DNA of 29,365 bases from positions 1 through 29,365 of the IMG/VR virus record IMGVR_UViG_3300025872_000225, one strand, 5' to 3'. The first letter of the stretch is position 1, and every line of letters begins with the position of its first letter. Shown in pieces: positions 1,221-20,214 of this stretch. This stretch comes from a virus. The position numbers and the translations under genes are program-made. The notes beneath the pieces are model-generated. The model had not been told where the DNA came from. It worked only from the letters and a program-made list of their open reading frames with translations, and did not search any database.

Positions 1221-2366
1221 TTACTTAAAATAAGGTCCTAACAACCAACAAACGACTGAGTGTCTAATTCCAGAAATAATATCTTCCACGCCATGCAAAA
1301 CAAAAGAAGGAAATACTATAATTGTACCTTTGCTTTGTTGTGGATATATTTTTTGATCTCCTACTTGTAAAAACAACTTACCTCCTTCAAAATCATCATT
1401 CAAAAAAGCTAATACAGTTAACTTTCTACAATCGTTATGAGGAGATCCTAAAAATGTATCAATATGAGATTTATATCTTCCTTCTTTTTCATATTTTAAA
1501 TATTCCACTTGATAACAATTATTTATATCAAATCTCCAAGCTTGCTGATTAGCTACAAAACCAGAACCAATCATATGTACACCTATCCCTTTATGAATAG
1601 GAAGCATAGTTTTTTCTACATTACGAATATTCAAGTTTAAATCACCATTATCATGACCTCCAATCAATCCTTTCTCTAAATTATAATTGGAGTACTTTCC
1701 TATAACTGAATTACAAAAATCTTCACTTAGTACATTTTCAAAAAACCAATAATTTATTGGTTCAAAATCTTGTTGTTTTTTATGTATTTTTTTAGTTTCT
1801 GCTGGTGTTCCAAGCCGATCTCTTCTATCGTACTTTTCATCTTTATATGGTCCATTAGCGTCTACATAATGAAAGAATACTTGGCATTGCCATTCTCCTT
1901 CAAACGGTTCTCTCCAATGATATATCTCTGTTCCTTTATAAAGAACGGCGTCTCCTATATCTAACAACAAAGGATTACTATTATCTATTTCATTTTTTAA
2001 ATTAAAATAAATTGGCCATGTCTTATCACTTATTCCTAAAGTAACAGTGGCACTTATTTCACATGCTGGTCTATCGGAGTGTATCTCTAATTCTTCTCCT
2101 TTTCTATAAATTCTAGCATAACTATAAGTAGGAATAAGAGTTTTACCAGAAACATCAGAAAATATTTCTATCAATTGCTCCATCATATTGTCAAAAAACG
2201 CATCTCCATAGATTGCGTCAGACACAGGACACTGTTCATCTTTTGTAGTTTTAGACTCATTATATAGCTTAAAAAGACGATCACATGCTTCTTTACACTG
2301 TTCATTTGATAGAACTTCTTTAAGCATTACATATTTTTTTTCATTAAAATCATCAACAATATTCAT
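1221..2366 (-). CDS. Tandem two-domain 2-oxoglutarate/Fe(II)-dependent oxygenase (prolyl-hydroxylase-like)
   Basis: A 381-residue protein with two non-haem iron oxygenase domains in one chain. Domain 1 (about 1-170) has HxD at H96-S97-D98 and a distal iron-ligand candidate H150 in YHWREPF, followed by QVFFHY; the usual 2-oxoglutarate-binding Arg/Lys after the distal His is not obvious, although R152 is close. Domain 2 (about 200-381) has the full set: H301-I-D303, FEGGKLFL at 326-333, distal H358 in VLHGV, and R368 in GIRHS. This matches the HxD...H...R plan of prolyl 4-hydroxylase/PKHD-type enzymes. Such enzymes couple 2-oxoglutarate decarboxylation to hydroxylation of a substrate. A good Shine-Dalgarno (GAGGAAA) precedes the ATG, and the gene lies 14 bases after the 738-residue fibre gene. 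The substrate is unknown; a tail fibre or the Pro-rich adhesin is a reasonable guess. Confidence 0.85.
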   Translation of the reverse strand: MNIVDDFNEKKYVMLKEVLSNEQCKEACDRLFKLYNESKTTKDEQCPVSDAIYGDAFFDNMMEQLIEIFSDVSGKTLIPTYSYARIYRKGEELEIHSDRPACEISATVTLGISDKTWPIYFNLKNEIDNSNPLLLDIGDAVLYKGTEIYHWREPFEGEWQCQVFFHYVDANGPYKDEKYDRRDRLGTPAETKKIHKKQQDFEPINYWFFENVLSEDFCNSVIGKYSNYNLEKGLIGGHDNGDLNLNIRNVEKTMLPIHKGIGVHMIGSGFVANQQAWRFDINNCYQVEYLKYEKEGRYKSHIDTFLGSPHNDCRKLTVLAFLNDDFEGGKLFLQVGDQKIYPQQSKGTIIVFPSFVLHGVEDIISGIRHSVVCWLLGPYFK

Positions 2367-2380
2367 ATTATTTCCTCATA

Positions 2381-4597
2381 TCAATATATGTATACAATAT
2401 CTCCATTTTGAGGACTTGCATTTACATCTTGTGGACCATTAGGTGTAGAACTATTAGCAACAAGAGTTCTTTTCCCCTGTGCATTCGTGTTGCCTGTTAT
2501 AGATGAAGTTGATTCTATTTGTAAAGTAGTATTAACTGAGATAATGGTGTTATTTACGCGCATTCTCTCAACACCGTTAGTAGTAATACCAAGAGTATCT
2601 GCTGCTGGTCTATATATGCCTAAATTGGTATCATTATTCCACGAATAACCAGGAACAGTTACTGAATCACTTTCATTAGTTCTTATAGCTTCAGGAATTA
2701 TCTGCGTGTTGATTGAAGAATTGCCAACCGAAATAGAGTTGTTAGTAACACTAAACCCATTAGTTGTAGCACTTATTGAACCTATAGCTATGCTTGCAGC
2801 AGTGTTAACTGTAATGCTACCACTGAAATTACCCGTGTTAGCATTTAAGGCCCATCTCTGAGTTGAACTTCCTAACGCAGTACCTACAGTATTAGACAAT
2901 GGATATACACCAGCTCCTGCAGCTGTAGATCTAATAAGCACACCATTTGTTGGTCCTATTTCAACATTTGAGGTGGTATTTCCGATAGTGATTGCCGTGT
3001 TAGTAACAGTCACACCATTTGCAACAGCTACTCCGCCGCCTACAGTGACTGTTCCAGTCACAGCTGCTGTGTTGGATAAAGTTACAGCTCCAGTTACTGC
3101 TAACGTATTAGATAGAGTAGTAGCACCAGTAACACTTAATGTATTAGATAGTATAGCTGCTCCAATAATATTTGCAGCACCATCTACCTTTAGTTTTGTA
3201 TCAGGTGTTGTTGTGCCTATTCCTACACGTGAGTTAATTGCATCTATGTACAATCCATTGAAGCTTACGTTACCAGACACGTAATGTGTGTTGGCGCTTG
3301 TAATCATCACATTACCAGAAGAAACTGTAAACCCATTAGATGCTGTTAATAATCCTCTAACACCTAAAGTACTTAAAGCATTAGCTGCACCGCCTATACC
3401 AAAAGTACTTAAAGCATTAGCGGCTCCAGTAATCCCTAAAGTACTTAAAGCATTAGCTCCACCAGTGATCCCTAAAGTACTTAGAACATTAGCTGCACCA
3501 GTAACGTTTAAAGTACCACCAATATTAGCAAATCCAGTATGCGTAATACCTACTGAATTGACTGTAATAAAGCCACTAATGTTGAGAGTCGTAGAAGTTA
3601 AATTAGCAGTGTTTCCTATAGATAAAAGATTTGCATTTAATATGGTATTAGATACGCTGTTAATGATGCGTATTTGACTAGGTGAAATACTAGAATTTAT
3701 AGAACTATTACCAGTTGCAATCGATGTATTAGTAAGTGTAGTACCGTTAGTGGTTGCAACACCTCCACCAACGTTTAAATTAGCTGAAGCATTGGTCGTG
3801 CCTGTAACTGTCAAACCGGCGGCTGCTGTTAGTAGCCCATTAACACCAAAAGTACTTAAAGCATTAGCGGCTCCAGTAATCCCTAAAGTACTTAGGGCAT
3901 TAGCTCCACCAGTGATTCCTAAAGTACTTAAAGCATTAGCGGCTCCAGTGATTCCTAAAGTACTTAAAGCATTAGCGGCTCCAGTAATTCCTAAAGTACT
4001 TAAAGCATTAGCTGCACCAGCTACGCGTAAAGTACCACCAACATTAGCGCTACCTGCTACGTTTGCAAATCCAGTATGAGTGATACCAACTGTGTTTACG
4101 ACTGCAGCCGTTCCAACGTTAGCTGATGTAGTTACGTAAAGAGTTGCAGTGTTTGTTTGATTTACTACATTAAGAGCTTGAAGATTAGCTAACGTGCTAT
4201 TGACTGTAACTGAACCAATAGTTAATGTAGTGGAAAGATTTAAACTGTTGCCATTCATAACCCAACGGTTAGTAGAGTTACCAAATGCCAAAGTATTTCC
4301 TATTGGTGTTAAAGATGTATATACTACAACATTATTAAAAAACCCATCAAATCTATTTGTAGTATTACCTAAATCTAAACCGTTTACACCAGCTAAAATA
4401 TCTCCTGTGTAACTCTGTCCAGCAACAATTTGTGTTGCACCAGTTACTAATAAATCGCCATTAATTAATACTAACTCACCATCAACGGTTAAGTTTGCTC
4501 GCGATGAAGTGTTTCCAATAAAAACTTGTTCAGAAAATTGTGCGTTACCACCCGTAACTAATAGACCATTCTCTGTTTTAAATCTAGTGTTAGCCAT
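2381..4597 (-). CDS. Repetitive tail-fibre protein
   Basis: A 738-residue low-complexity protein rich in Thr, Asn, Ala, Ser, Val and Gly, with no cysteine or membrane segment. It begins MANTRFKTENGLLVTGGNAQF, a common start for marine phage fibre proteins. The middle has two blocks built from a 12-residue unit GITGAANALSTL, five and four copies, each preceded by a VGITHTGFAN segment, so a larger piece has been duplicated. An NSRVGIGTTTP motif follows, as is common in trimeric phage fibres, then more TLSNTLAVTGA-type strands. Near the C-terminus GYSWNNDTNLGIYRP and NGVERMRV are also typical fibre motifs. The chain ends QNGDIVYIY without an S74 intramolecular chaperone. Presumed trimeric beta-fibre of the baseplate rim. 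It follows the 403-residue fibre gene by 9 bases, with TAGGAAC as ribosome-binding site. Confidence 0.75.
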   Translation of the reverse strand: MANTRFKTENGLLVTGGNAQFSEQVFIGNTSSRANLTVDGELVLINGDLLVTGATQIVAGQSYTGDILAGVNGLDLGNTTNRFDGFFNNVVVYTSLTPIGNTLAFGNSTNRWVMNGNSLNLSTTLTIGSVTVNSTLANLQALNVVNQTNTATLYVTTSANVGTAAVVNTVGITHTGFANVAGSANVGGTLRVAGAANALSTLGITGAANALSTLGITGAANALSTLGITGGANALSTLGITGAANALSTFGVNGLLTAAAGLTVTGTTNASANLNVGGGVATTNGTTLTNTSIATGNSSINSSISPSQIRIINSVSNTILNANLLSIGNTANLTSTTLNISGFITVNSVGITHTGFANIGGTLNVTGAANVLSTLGITGGANALSTLGITGAANALSTFGIGGAANALSTLGVRGLLTASNGFTVSSGNVMITSANTHYVSGNVSFNGLYIDAINSRVGIGTTTPDTKLKVDGAANIIGAAILSNTLSVTGATTLSNTLAVTGAVTLSNTAAVTGTVTVGGGVAVANGVTVTNTAITIGNTTSNVEIGPTNGVLIRSTAAGAGVYPLSNTVGTALGSSTQRWALNANTGNFSGSITVNTAASIAIGSISATTNGFSVTNNSISVGNSSINTQIIPEAIRTNESDSVTVPGYSWNNDTNLGIYRPAADTLGITTNGVERMRVNNTIISVNTTLQIESTSSITGNTNAQGKRTLVANSSTPNGPQDVNASPQNGDIVYIY
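3366..3509. repeat. 36-bp tandem repeat block A (4 units)
   Basis: Units start with AAAGTACTTA on the plus strand at 3366, 3402, 3438 and 3474, exactly 36 bases apart, and a decayed fifth starts at 3510. Each unit encodes 12 residues of the ALSTLGITGAAN type in the minus-strand fibre gene. The unit length is a multiple of three, so gain or loss of units keeps the frame. Confidence 0.95.
3849..4028. repeat. 36-bp tandem repeat block B (5 units)
   Basis: Units start with AAAGTACTTA at 3849, 3885, 3921, 3957 and 3993, and a decayed sixth at 4029. They are near-identical to each other and to block A. On the same side, both blocks are flanked by AAAGTACCACCAA and then a stretch encoding VGITHTGFAN, so the two blocks come from one larger in-gene duplication. 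Confidence 0.95.
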
Positions 4598-14538: not shown

Positions 14539-17500
14539 CTAAAACTCCAGAATTAGCTTGATAGTTTCTGATTGTGTATTTGATCTAGAAATTGGTTCTA
14601 TATTTTCTATATATATGATGTCACCCGAACCTCTTACAAAATCACCTTCATATTTATACGTGGATCCGCTGTCTAGAACTACTGTAGTTCCTGAATCTTC
14701 ACCTACTACGGTATTTCCTGCATAAAATAGTCCAGTTGCTCTAACCACTTTAAACGCAGTAGAGTTAGCTGAATGAATATATGCTATAGCTGAGTTGTTT
14801 ATACCACTTCTAACTATTTCATCTTCCTGGAAATTTTGTGGACTTCCAGAACTTACAAAATATGTGAATAGTTGGTCCACGTTCGTTCCAGTTTTTACCA
14901 TATCATTGTAAGATACTTGTAACACATTTGCTGAAGCACGCGAGGATATGCCAATGATATCATTTGACGTGACAAACAAACCAGTAGCGTTAGTTACTTG
15001 CACATAATCAGCGCCTCTTTCTTTTATGTTTCCTTTTGCATTTATTTTAGCAACAGAGATAGCAGCAGCAGTATTAGTAAACGATGGAAATTCAGTAACA
15101 GATAACCAAGTTGAATTTGAAACTTCATCTACTGTAAGGATCTGTGATTCGGACGTAGTTTCTACGTATATTTTATCACCAGCTGATATGGAACTATCAA
15201 AAGTGGTACGGTTATCGCTGAGTATAAGATTAAGATTAGAAGATTGTGTTGTTGTAAAAAATAAATTTGAACTATCGGCTACTTGTATTTCAATAGAAGC
15301 AGGAGTAGATAGTGTTACGATTTCAGTTGTATTTCCAATCGTCGGTGCATATATTAGATTAGCTACTAAAGTCGGTGATGCTTTAACGTTCAACGTTAAG
15401 TCAGCAAACTGGCCAATAGAAGGATTACCATTAGCGTTGTAGACACGTAATGTAGTTGTCTTTGCAACTTTTGCAACAAGATTAGCGTTTGTTCCATTGG
15501 CAGTTCCACCAATGCTATTTGCAACTTCTACTCCAGGCGCACATTCATAATTTTCTCCGCCGTTTAATACAAATGCACGAACAATACCCCCAGTAGAATT
15601 AGTTAGAAGAATAGCATTTGCGCCAGTACCCCCGCCGCCGCAAAAATCTATTGTGTCTGCATTAGAATAACCAGAACCACCTGAAATAATTTCAATCTCA
15701 GACACATACCATGGAATGATTCCTCGGCCTCTATTTGTTAACTGAGTAGAAACAATAGTTCCAGTCACAGTGGTTTCAAGGTTTGCTCTAGCCGCACTTC
15801 CTCCCGGTGAAGAAATTAATATGTAATCAGTGTTACTGTAACCAGTTCCTCCATCGGAGATTCCAATTGAACTTACAACATTTGTATTAAAATATCGTAC
15901 ATCTCCACCTGTTGAATTAACAACATACATGTTTAAAGACGATGTATTGACGAATCCGTACCCACTAACGTTCAATGTTACACCAGTCATGCCTCCAGTT
16001 GCATTTGTTATAGCATTTCCTATTGCGTTGATATTTCCATTAGTTACATATACAACATCTGTGTTGACTGCAAATCCATCATAAACACTATTTGCTACTA
16101 CTATATCTTGAATAATGACACCGTTTAGATAACGCGTGTTTCCTCCAGAAGAATTAGCAACTAAAATTTTCAAATTAGCTGTAGTGAATCCTTTTCCTGA
16201 GTCAGTAAGGTTTGTGGTATACGCTGGAGTGGCTTGGTATTCAAGAATAGCGTCTGAAGAAACTGAACCAGTCATCCACAGTTTTCCTAAACTATGGTTT
16301 AAGTATACTGCCGTAGGTCCTGTCTCTACTCTTTCAAAATTAAGATTTGCATAAGAAGACGTTACTATAGATTGAACGTTCCAAGCTTCTGTAAGATTAA
16401 AAGAATATAGTATCGATCGTCCTGATTCAACGATATATATAACATCACCGCTGCTGTTCAATGAAACGCTCTGATACGCTGGATTAGCAGGTCCTCCAGA
16501 TATATTTGGATTTACGTTTGCATTGTACGTTGCGGTTGATATGCTCCAAGGAGTAGATAGATCATATTGCTGTATTCTATCTGCAGTCGTTCCTACAAGA
16601 TAAGCGCGAGTGCCGTCTGGTTTGAACCATAATCCAGTAGGAGCTGTTTCTCTAGCAAACGTAGTTACGTTTGCAACATAAGACATAGTTTGAACATTCC
16701 AGGCTTGTGATAATGAGAATTGTAAGATACCGTTAGCTGCACCAGTCGTATTTGCTGTAGGAACATATATTGAAGTACCATTCGCGGTTATGTATAAATC
16801 ATTTGGATTAGTATGAAAAAGAGCACCGGTAGCAGTATTACCTGCGTGCGTAGAAGTTGTAACGTCCCATGCAGTGCTTAAATCATATTGTTGAATTTTT
16901 CTACCTGCTACACCTGATCCAATAATAAAAAATCTAGTTCCATCTGGTTTAAAAAATATTCCAGTAGGTATTGGTTCTTGTGTTTGTAAAAACCTACTTC
17001 TACCAGTGTAATACATATTAAATATGTTTGAAATTTGACCATTCGCTATTACGTTGGCAGTTCCATTTGCTGTTCCACCATAAAATATAATCTGATCATT
17101 ATTTGCAAAATTTTCAGCAACACCTTCTAACTCTACTCTAAAAGCACCACTAGAACCAGCTGTGTCTAAAATAGATACAGTTGGTTCTTGAGTGTAACCA
17201 AACCCTGAATTTGCTAATACTGCAAAATTCAACAATCCGCCTGCTGTATTAACAAAAAATGCTGTAGCGCCATAGCCACCATCACTACTTGTGATGACAA
17301 GAGAATTTGCTAAGACTGGTATTAAGTTTGCACCTATTCCATTTGCTTGGGCATTGATCGAGATCGTAGTAACGCTTCTTAAATATTGTGAAGTGTCTTG
17401 AGTTGTTGCTGTTATATTAATAGCAGCACCGTTTAAAGTATTCGCTAATTTTATGCCTGTACTGTTTGCTCCTACTATGTAGTATACTTGATTATTAGTT

Positions 17501-20214
17501 AAGCCGCCTATAGTAGGTTGACTAGGAGCAGAAAAATATTGAACCGCTTGGCCATTTGCTAATGGGCCGGGAGTAATTGTAATAAAATCGTCAGCTGAAC
17601 TTACGTTTGAAGTATTTCCAGCAAAAACAATAAGGTTTGCATAACCAGTTCCATTAGCAACCATTGTGACTGAGATGATTTTACCTGTACTATCATTAGA
17701 AAAAGTAGCGTTTGCACCAGAGCCAGAACCACTAAATACTAATATATTATTTGCAGTGGAGTTATAACCAATTCCACCATTTTCTATATCAACTCGTAAT
17801 ACTTTAGTAGAATCATAACCACTTCCTGTAGCCGTAACAATTATATTTTTTATCCTGTATGAAGGAGCACTGTTACTTATAGTCGCAGAACTGACTATTT
17901 TGCTATCAAATCTTCTTACAAATCCTCCGGTAGAGTTTGATACAAAATAATTAAGATTTGTATTTCCGATATTGAATCCAAAATTATTTCCAGCATTCAC
18001 ATTTGCAAAATTTAAAGACCCGTCTACATTTGTAGCTATATTCGCTACAGCATTTCCGTTAACACTAGACGGACTAACTATCGTCATTATGTCTGAATTT
18101 GAATATAAACTTATATCTCCATTAGCGTTTTTAATTACACTAATAACTTTAGCGCCGTTTGAATAGCCGCCAGATGCATTTGCAATCTTAACACTTAATC
18201 CGTTTGCTTGAAGTACGGGTGTTATGACGGCCGATACTGTTGGAGAACCATAGGGTGTAACAGTTGGTGCTGAAGTGTAACCAATTCCTCTATTCGTAAG
18301 AGATATGCTAACAATGTTGCCAGTAGCATTGTTGACGAATGTTGCAACTGCGCCTGTTCCACCACCACCTGTAAACGCTATTTGGTTGTTTACAGTGGAG
18401 TTATACCCCCGACCAGCATTAACAATTGTTAAATAAGCAATTTCATTACTAGCAAACCCCTTACCGCTATTGGTAATGGTGATGTTTGATATTCCACCAG
18501 TTGCATTAGTAGACAATATAGCTATAGCATTAACGATAGCTGACGTACTAGATATTTGAATAATATCATTATTATTATAAGATAATCCGTTTGCGGATGC
18601 GCTTAATCCAGTAATAATTTTAGAATTAAAGTGTCTTACGTTTCCGCCTGTAGCATTTGCAGATGTTATCACCGCGGAAGATGTATCGCTTATTCCATAT
18701 CCTGCAGAAGATAATGGAAGGCTTGATAGATAGCCAGTAGAATTAGAAACTACAGTCGCTGTAGCGTTTATCACCACATTAGATACTGTTACTATATCTG
18801 TATTTGAAAACGTAATATTTCCCGAAGAAACTACTTGAATAGCAGTCAAGGTGCCGATACTAAAAATGTTTTTGCTACTGGAATCTACACCTACAGTGCC
18901 ATTAATTTTATTTAATTTTGCTTGTATTAGTTCTTCACCATCAGAAAAACCAACACCAGACAAAGAGTCATACGTCAATTTTACATCGTTGAATTTTGGA
19001 TCTTTTAATAATCCTACTGTTCTAAAATCATTGTCTGTTGATATTTCACCATTTTCACTATTAGAAAACTTAACGCTTATTCCCATGTTAGTTGCAAATA
19101 ATTCAGATTCTGCATCGTAACCATGGCCCCCTTTAGGTGAATAAATGACTCTCAGTTCTGCTTGATTAATTGAATTAGATAACTTAGCAACTGGATTAGC
19201 GTAAGCATTTGCTGTTGCAAGAAAATAATCTTTTCCTTTATTTAAAATTTCAATCTTATAAATGGTATTTGCAGCTGTAGCATTGATTAAAGCTCTTGCT
19301 TCTGCGTTTATAGTTTGGCGGCCATCACCTGTAATAATTACTTCAGGAGAAATTTCAAAATTGCTTGTTGTTGGAGTCACTAAAAATGGTTCATCTATAG
19401 TAACAACATAATATCCTGAAACTTGATCGTATGATACTATTTTTCTATATTGGCCAATTCCATCTCCAGACACAATCTTCAAGATACAACCTTCATAGAA
19501 ATCAGTGTTAGATGCTGCGTTTGCAGAAGTAATCCTGTACTGAATTGCCGAACCATTGTATCTTACATCTGAAGCAGTGAATGATCCTTCTAAGTGATTA
19601 TTATAATCTTTTCCACCAGACACAATCTTTATTACGTCTATCTCACCGCTTATTGCATTTGCTGATACGTTTGCATCTGGAATGACGGGTATATAATCTA
19701 TTGTTGAAAATTTATTGAAAGTAGTCTGATCTATTTGATACATGTATTTCCAGATGTATCCATCAGCCGTTTCATAATAAACATCGTCAGCAGACGTTGC
19801 ACTAAATATTGGTTGGCTCGTTGATGCTATTCCTTCTTTATTATATAAACATTTAAAGACGTAATAAGTACCACCTTCTTTTGAAACTACAAAGAAAGCT
19901 TTGTCTTTTAAATTTTTATCTAGACTATCATACATATCATAGACAGTGCCAGTTGTCCAATCATACCTAGATACTAATGGCTTAACATCATTTGAAGTGA
20001 CTTTTTTGGCAAGAATCATTTCATCATAGACACGAGTTGTCAACGACTCGATGTCAGTATTGGGTGTATCGATAGTGTTGTCACCCAAAAGATATTGAGT
20101 AGGCTTTCCTGCAAAAACGTAATATATTGTATTTGCTGGTTCAGTAATTGACTCTATAAATTGGCGAATATGGTGAAGCTTAAATTCTGGTGTTACTATT
20201 TTATTACTAGCCAT
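14539..20214 (-). CDS. 8: Giant baseplate wedge protein gp8 with large internal insertion
   Basis: An 1891-residue protein; T4 gp8 is 334. Residues about 1-190 match the gp8 N-terminal half: NTIYYVFAGKPTQ, VSRYDWTTGTVYD, YYVFKCLYN, and ADGYIWKYMYQI followed by DYIPV. The last 30 residues (GSGDIIYIENIEPISRSNTQ to LILEF) match the T4 gp8 C-terminus. Between them lie beta modules with NATGG and GxGY motifs (about 455-1065 and 1340-1560), one copy of the gp7-type shared module (about 869-954), and a propeller-like domain of five repeats (about 1065-1340; FKPDGTRFFIIG and IQQYDLSTAWDV). The frame is open throughout, so this is one intact gene. It follows gp7 by 12 bases with AAAGAGAA as ribosome-binding site. 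gp8 joins wedge proteins in the baseplate; the insertion probably projects outward. Confidence 0.85.
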   Translation of the reverse strand: MASNKIVTPEFKLHHIRQFIESITEPANTIYYVFAGKPTQYLLGDNTIDTPNTDIESLTTRVYDEMILAKKVTSNDVKPLVSRYDWTTGTVYDMYDSLDKNLKDKAFFVVSKEGGTYYVFKCLYNKEGIASTSQPIFSATSADDVYYETADGYIWKYMYQIDQTTFNKFSTIDYIPVIPDANVSANAISGEIDVIKIVSGGKDYNNHLEGSFTASDVRYNGSAIQYRITSANAASNTDFYEGCILKIVSGDGIGQYRKIVSYDQVSGYYVVTIDEPFLVTPTTSNFEISPEVIITGDGRQTINAEARALINATAANTIYKIEILNKGKDYFLATANAYANPVAKLSNSINQAELRVIYSPKGGHGYDAESELFATNMGISVKFSNSENGEISTDNDFRTVGLLKDPKFNDVKLTYDSLSGVGFSDGEELIQAKLNKINGTVGVDSSSKNIFSIGTLTAIQVVSSGNITFSNTDIVTVSNVVINATATVVSNSTGYLSSLPLSSAGYGISDTSSAVITSANATGGNVRHFNSKIITGLSASANGLSYNNNDIIQISSTSAIVNAIAILSTNATGGISNITITNSGKGFASNEIAYLTIVNAGRGYNSTVNNQIAFTGGGGTGAVATFVNNATGNIVSISLTNRGIGYTSAPTVTPYGSPTVSAVITPVLQANGLSVKIANASGGYSNGAKVISVIKNANGDISLYSNSDIMTIVSPSSVNGNAVANIATNVDGSLNFANVNAGNNFGFNIGNTNLNYFVSNSTGGFVRRFDSKIVSSATISNSAPSYRIKNIIVTATGSGYDSTKVLRVDIENGGIGYNSTANNILVFSGSGSGANATFSNDSTGKIISVTMVANGTGYANLIVFAGNTSNVSSADDFITITPGPLANGQAVQYFSAPSQPTIGGLTNNQVYYIVGANSTGIKLANTLNGAAINITATTQDTSQYLRSVTTISINAQANGIGANLIPVLANSLVITSSDGGYGATAFFVNTAGGLLNFAVLANSGFGYTQEPTVSILDTAGSSGAFRVELEGVAENFANNDQIIFYGGTANGTANVIANGQISNIFNMYYTGRSRFLQTQEPIPTGIFFKPDGTRFFIIGSGVAGRKIQQYDLSTAWDVTTSTHAGNTATGALFHTNPNDLYITANGTSIYVPTANTTGAANGILQFSLSQAWNVQTMSYVANVTTFARETAPTGLWFKPDGTRAYLVGTTADRIQQYDLSTPWSISTATYNANVNPNISGGPANPAYQSVSLNSSGDVIYIVESGRSILYSFNLTEAWNVQSIVTSSYANLNFERVETGPTAVYLNHSLGKLWMTGSVSSDAILEYQATPAYTTNLTDSGKGFTTANLKILVANSSGGNTRYLNGVIIQDIVVANSVYDGFAVNTDVVYVTNGNINAIGNAITNATGGMTGVTLNVSGYGFVNTSSLNMYVVNSTGGDVRYFNTNVVSSIGISDGGTGYSNTDYILISSPGGSAARANLETTVTGTIVSTQLTNRGRGIIPWYVSEIEIISGGSGYSNADTIDFCGGGGTGANAILLTNSTGGIVRAFVLNGGENYECAPGVEVANSIGGTANGTNANLVAKVAKTTTLRVYNANGNPSIGQFADLTLNVKASPTLVANLIYAPTIGNTTEIVTLSTPASIEIQVADSSNLFFTTTQSSNLNLILSDNRTTFDSSISAGDKIYVETTSESQILTVDEVSNSTWLSVTEFPSFTNTAAAISVAKINAKGNIKERGADYVQVTNATGLFVTSNDIIGISSRASANVLQVSYNDMVKTGTNVDQLFTYFVSSGSPQNFQEDEIVRSGINNSAIAYIHSANSTAFKVVRATGLFYAGNTVVGEDSGTTVVLDSGSTYKYEGDFVRGSGDIIYIENIEPISRSNTQSETIKLILEF

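Follow-up and report, generated by a model that had tools for sequence, protein, structure and literature searches.

A predicted five-bladed beta-propeller within the gp8 baseplate wedge protein of a T4-like phage: a candidate exchangeable binding module

Background

Beta-propellers are already known from the adhesion devices of phages, namely from Gp45 of Staphylococcus phage phi11, gp131C of PhiKZ and P2 of PRD1, and extra domains are known from tail sheaths. The host range of T4-like phages is usually credited to their tail fibres. In the receptor-binding protein (RBP) Gp45 of phi11, a five-bladed platform is closed by an N-terminal strand, and its cavity has been proposed to accommodate GlcNAc (PMC4901313). 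The wedge protein gp8 of T4 has a mass of 38.0 kDa; together with gp7 it lies in the periphery of the baseplate, with 12 copies of gp8, two per wedge (PMC3004832).

A preliminary description of a virus fragment of 29,365 bases (the window, meaning the whole stretch of DNA that was analysed) reported repeats resembling propeller blades within a homologue of gp8. Here I examine this insert, its site in related gp8 proteins and its occurrence in other tail proteins. Sequences compared with the window are given by their L numbers.

Results

The window is the baseplate region of a T4-like phage, with all major genes on the minus strand in the order hub-region gene, gp5-OB, PAAR, gp25, gp6, a gp7-like wedge protein, gp8, a DUF4815 protein and then fibre-like genes. 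The assignment of the insert-bearing protein to gp8 is borne out: PF09215 matches its C-terminus (E 1e-7), phrog_438 (baseplate wedge subunit) matches residues 5-563 (E 2e-85), and the gene occupies the wedge-operon place after gp6 and gp7. The peripheral position with two copies per wedge, known for T4 gp8 (PMC3004832), is assumed for it. A long block of GxG[YF] beta-repeats fills the middle of the protein, and the propeller is set in the midst of this block, at about aa 1061-1336.

14539..20214, minus strand: gp8-type baseplate wedge protein with insert, 1,891 aa (PF09215, phrog_438, gene order)
18865..20214, minus strand: gp8 N-terminal core, aa 1-450, conserved (L004 90%, L003 84% identity)
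17035..18864, minus strand: first GxG[YF] beta-repeat block, aa 451-1060, an expansion that short gp8 proteins such as that of L006 lack
15415..16206, minus strand: second GxG[YF] repeat block, aa 1337-1600, immediately after the cassette
14539..14673, minus strand: gp8 C-terminal core strands, aa 1848-1891 and stop (PF09215 positions 294-337)

The first repeat block also holds a second small module (window 17320-17574, gp8 aa 881-965; GGLTNNQVYYIVGANSTGIKLA...). Neither L003 nor L004 has this module; copies related to it are found in the DUF4815 protein, at 51% identity, and the gp7-like protein has four of them. Elsewhere in the window, a fibre-like protein (2381-4597, minus strand) carries near-identical tandem peptides (ANALSTLGITGA...) and GIGTTTP motifs, and a 2OG-Fe(II) oxygenase domain (PF13640, E 8e-13) lies among the fibre genes at 1221-2366 (minus strand).

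The repeat motifs quoted in the preliminary description are all present, in frame, in the open reading frame 14539-20214 (minus strand), and the position given there for the domain, 16195-17015, was right to within about 20 bases.

16207..17034, minus strand: predicted five-bladed beta-propeller cassette, aa 1061-1336 (repeats, HMM, AlphaFold2, SGL E 5e-7)
16990..17016, minus strand: N-terminal closing strand, aa 1067-1075, completing blade 5 (model strand order)
16837..16968, minus strand: blade 1, aa 1083-1126 (model strands, HMM)
16666..16800, minus strand: blade 2, aa 1139-1183 (model strands, HMM)
16513..16641, minus strand: blade 3, aa 1192-1234 (model strands, HMM)
16339..16476, minus strand: blade 4, aa 1247-1292 (model strands, HMM)
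16231..16317, minus strand: blade 5, aa 1300-1328, three strands, the fourth being the N-terminal strand (HMM below significance)

With the window's own blade left out of its construction, a blade HMM detects four complete blades in gp8 (i-E 2e-17, 8e-8, 4e-20 and 5e-4; 1e-48 for the whole protein), and not one of 1,000 versions of the segment with shuffled residues obtains a score. Blade 5 falls below significance with the HMM (i-E 33), yet it is confident in the AlphaFold2 model. Modelled alone, the module reaches a pTM of 0.87 and a mean pLDDT of 86; modelled with its flanks, from an alignment of the window and its contig relatives, it has a pLDDT of about 90 throughout, against less than 50 in the flanks. 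The predicted order comprises 20 strands, which form four full four-stranded blades and a fifth made of the last three strands together with the N-terminal MYYTGRSRF, ring closure being read from this strand order. The propeller reading of the preliminary description is confirmed on this prediction, with aa ~1061-1336 modelled as a closed five-bladed beta-propeller. As blade 5 is completed by the N-terminal strand, the two ends of the chain come together where the module is inserted.

That five blades make up the closed unit is supported independently by homologues, whose blades come in multiples of this number. Exactly 5, 10 or 15 blades are detected in 73 of 101 non-redundant clusters (5 in 47, 10 in 20, 15 in 6), and many of the remaining clusters have 4 or 9, as expected if one weak blade is missed; blade spacing is mostly 51-52 aa. 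Isolated phages also carry runs of five blades, ICBM2 one and CRP-9 three. The family is abundant, a single scan of IMG/VR giving at least 583 stretches, and runs of five are also seen in two Bacteroidota genome contigs (L136 and L137; a Flavobacteriales MAG and Marivirga).

The module is a divergent propeller of the YVTN/SGL/lactonase type, as is indicated by the Pfam family SGL (PF08450), which scores 30.1 bits against a cut-off of 26.3 (E 5e-7), and by a profile search of solved structures, a comparison with propeller families that the preliminary description had proposed. The best match there is the YVTN surface-layer protein 1l0q (E 2.9e-15), with lactonase-type propellers ranking behind it (1ri6, E 3e-4). 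Foldseek also matches the module to propellers, and 6-phosphogluconolactonases are similar to it both by profile and by fold.

The insert is not a constant part of gp8. At the corresponding site in eight proteins, a five-bladed propeller is found in three, no insert in four, and an unrelated propeller, an array of RCC1 repeats, in one, so that the comparison of gp8 proteins with and without the insert suggested by the preliminary description yields both kinds.

Window, L004, L146: five-bladed module at the gp8 site
L003, L057, L058, L142: empty gp8 site
L148:3016-5139, plus strand: RCC1-repeat array in gp8, 708 residues (PF00415, at least 12 stretches, E 7e-115)

The gp8 of L003, 84% identical in the N-terminal core, reads through the site without the module (...GNATANATYFLQSVDVTDSGGGF...). 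The array in L148, identified as an RCC1-type propeller by its PF00415 repeats, occupies the same alignment position as the five-bladed module (columns 1095-1103) and is in frame with both ends of gp8. In a tree of the gp8 backbone, with the cassettes left out, the empty L003 falls with full support between L146 and the pair of window and L004, and the site was therefore gained or lost more than once. Being five-bladed, empty or filled with an unrelated RCC1 array, this one site behaves as a variable cassette port. The cassettes themselves have diverged strongly, as those of window and L004 are 42% identical overall against 90% for the gp8 core, and in the strands the window is 46% identical to L004 and 45% to the far more distant L146; cassette divergence does not track the gp8 backbone. 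Scanning with the part of gp8 that precedes the cassette returned only two weak, irrelevant loci.

A further sequence, L002, is identical to the window over 8,128 bases save for 36 mismatches, all within 15742-16245 of the window (504 bases). This stretch spans the last part of the propeller as well as the repeat that follows it, and may be a local recombination tract or strain variation.

The same module also occurs outside gp8. In one contig it lies between the domains of a tail-sheath protein, and as a scan with this module retrieved that contig alone, the sheath case is a single one.

L001:1256-4090, plus strand: tail-sheath protein with five-bladed module (phrog_23, E 1e-113; PF04984, PF17482)

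In S-SKS1-like cyanophages (L059-L066), the giant wedge protein gp7 (phrog_2885) contains the module; the gp7 proteins of P-SSM2, S-SRM01 and other phages align on either side of the module, not through it. A structure search of viral proteins also returns a 'baseplate wedge subunit' of an uncultured phage. In S-SKS1 itself (L032, HQ633071.1, 2413-14799), the giant gp7 gene is split across several open reading frames and partly unannotated, which accounts for the absence of the propeller from public annotation; its IMG/VR relatives have gp7 in one frame (L059, 4,136 codons).

Loops were classed by the predicted strands, with the B-C and D-A loops forming the top face and the A-B and C-D loops the bottom face. 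The B-C/D-A face is the classical ligand-binding face of propellers. Between window and L004, 14 of 72 positions (19%) are identical in the top loops and 35 of 55 (64%) in the bottom loops (p 5e-7). The same contrast holds between window and L146 and is repeated in five pairs of cyanophage gp7 (L065/L066, 43% vs 100%, p 4e-13), although part of it may reflect structural constraint, as the structural turns KPDGT and STAWD lie on the conserved face.

As synonymous sites are saturated between window and L004 (pS ~0.7), no evidence of positive selection is taken from dN/dS in this pair, and pN/pS was obtained from the gp7 cassettes instead. Pooled over four gp7 pairs, the top loops have a pN/pS of 1.26, the strands 0.54 and the bottom loops 0.23, compared with 0.35-0.42 in the flanking gp7. 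The excess of replacements in the top loops over the flanks is significant (p 7e-9), with the value of 1.26 itself not significantly above 1 (p 0.26). Synonymous divergence of the cassette is below that of the flanks in every pair, and furthest below it in L065/L066 (pS 0.09 vs 0.53, p 4e-20). The cassette has thus been exchanged between gp7 backbones, with the loop changes following afterwards.

Discussion

On balance I think it probable that the propeller is a swappable, outward-facing accessory binding module, probably for a ligand on the host surface, with variation among hosts driving both the diversification of the loops and the swapping of cassettes. The predicted propeller is self-contained and is inserted in a loop between the beta-repeats of gp8, and because its first and last strands are adjacent in one blade, the host protein could gain or lose it and stay otherwise intact. 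Joined to gp8 by this one blade, it would project from the rim of the baseplate, and given the peripheral position and 12 copies of gp8 in T4, a ring of propellers may be displayed around the rim. At landing, the cassette would touch a variable structure of the host surface, a glycan or an envelope protein for example. Exposure on the virion and a part in adsorption are presumed here, and the proposed ligand binding gains weight from the restriction of hypervariability to one face and from the exchangeable nature of the site. In an experiment in which cyanophage S-PM2d coevolved with its host, gp8 mutated early (PMC9910659), which fits contact with the host.

Alternatively, the propeller could stiffen the rim or contact a neighbour in wedge, fibre or sheath, and its variable face would then co-evolve with a partner in the virion rather than with the host. 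The module does occur in gp7 and in the tail sheath, which are not classical adhesins, and for extra sheath domains a role in stability or adsorption has been proposed (PMC9230969). However, close relatives do entirely without the module, and the gp7 cassette moves among divergent backbones. With an unrelated RCC1 propeller at the same site, a specific contact with another virion protein would hardly be tolerable, and I regard a structural or decoration role as rather unlikely.

It is very improbable that the blades have merely spread through easy recombination, without adaptive function. Their abundance, with the 583 or more stretches mentioned above, and the repeat-built nature of phage gp8 and gp7 would suit such a spread; yet copy number is kept to multiples of five, the fold is intact, and purifying selection acts on the bottom loops (pN/pS 0.23) and the strands (0.54).

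I give just as little credence to an enzyme, that is, a lactonase, gluconolactonase or glycan-modifying propeller working on the host surface. The match to SGL (PF08450, E 5e-7) and the likeness to 6-phosphogluconolactonases in profile and fold point in this direction. But in the family alignment no unique conserved catalytic or metal residue was found; the invariant and near-invariant columns are all at positions of the FKPDGT..G..Y.L..AW..T repeat, so that no family-wide catalytic site is visible. Moreover, the module has five blades, whereas Pfam names the lactonase family PF10282 seven-bladed.

That a diversity-generating retroelement writes the variable loops can practically be dismissed: some loop codons do vary at positions 1-2 while keeping the third base (columns 43, 75, 137 and 156), but others change the third base too and many sites involve no A, and no reverse transcriptase gene (RVT_1) was found in the complete S-SKS1 genome or in nine other records, the window itself being a fragment, while control genomes were positive.

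Returning to the exchangeable binding module, the gp8 site might, more tentatively, be a 'propeller port' in this clade of T4-like phages, a fixed loop between beta-repeats at which unrelated propellers (the five-bladed YVTN-like one and the RCC1 array) are gained, lost and swapped, each of them serving host recognition through a ligand face that changes rapidly. If so, gp7 and gp8 would be determinants of host range beside the tail fibres, and the exchangeable wedge propellers would point to a second adhesion layer in environmental T4-like phages, at the rim of the baseplate. S-SKS1, a phage isolated on a laboratory strain of Synechococcus (host WH7803), is a testable candidate with its propeller-bearing gp7. 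The open-licence literature yielded no description of a propeller within a T4-type wedge protein, of a module that gp8, gp7 and the sheath have in common, or of a site at which unrelated propellers alternate.

With the YVTN/SGL/lactonase propellers (1l0q, YbhE, YncE, SMP-30) the module shares significant profile similarity and the same blade topology. These propellers have six or seven blades and several of them are enzymes, whereas the phage unit has five blades and is without a conserved catalytic residue. Among marine phages, repeat proteins from the tail region of ICBM2, CRP-9, CRP-13 and CRP-738 belong to the same blade family and also show runs of five, but are annotated as hypothetical and are not inserts in a recognised baseplate core protein. 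The Ig-like and other extra domains of tail sheaths are likewise additions outside a conserved core, with adsorption or stability proposed for them, but they are of a different fold (PMC9230969). PhiKZ gp131C, at the baseplate periphery, and the head of PRD1 P2, a distorted five-bladed propeller, are also propellers on attachment structures of phages; in contrast to the module, gp131C is seven-bladed, and neither protein is a T4-type wedge (PMC4901313). The phi11 Gp45, to which no sequence relation was seen, has the same five four-stranded blades, with an N-terminal strand completing blade 5, and likewise belongs to a baseplate (PMC4901313). There, however, the propeller is the platform of a dedicated trimeric RBP, while that of the window is a removable insert in the core of a wedge protein.
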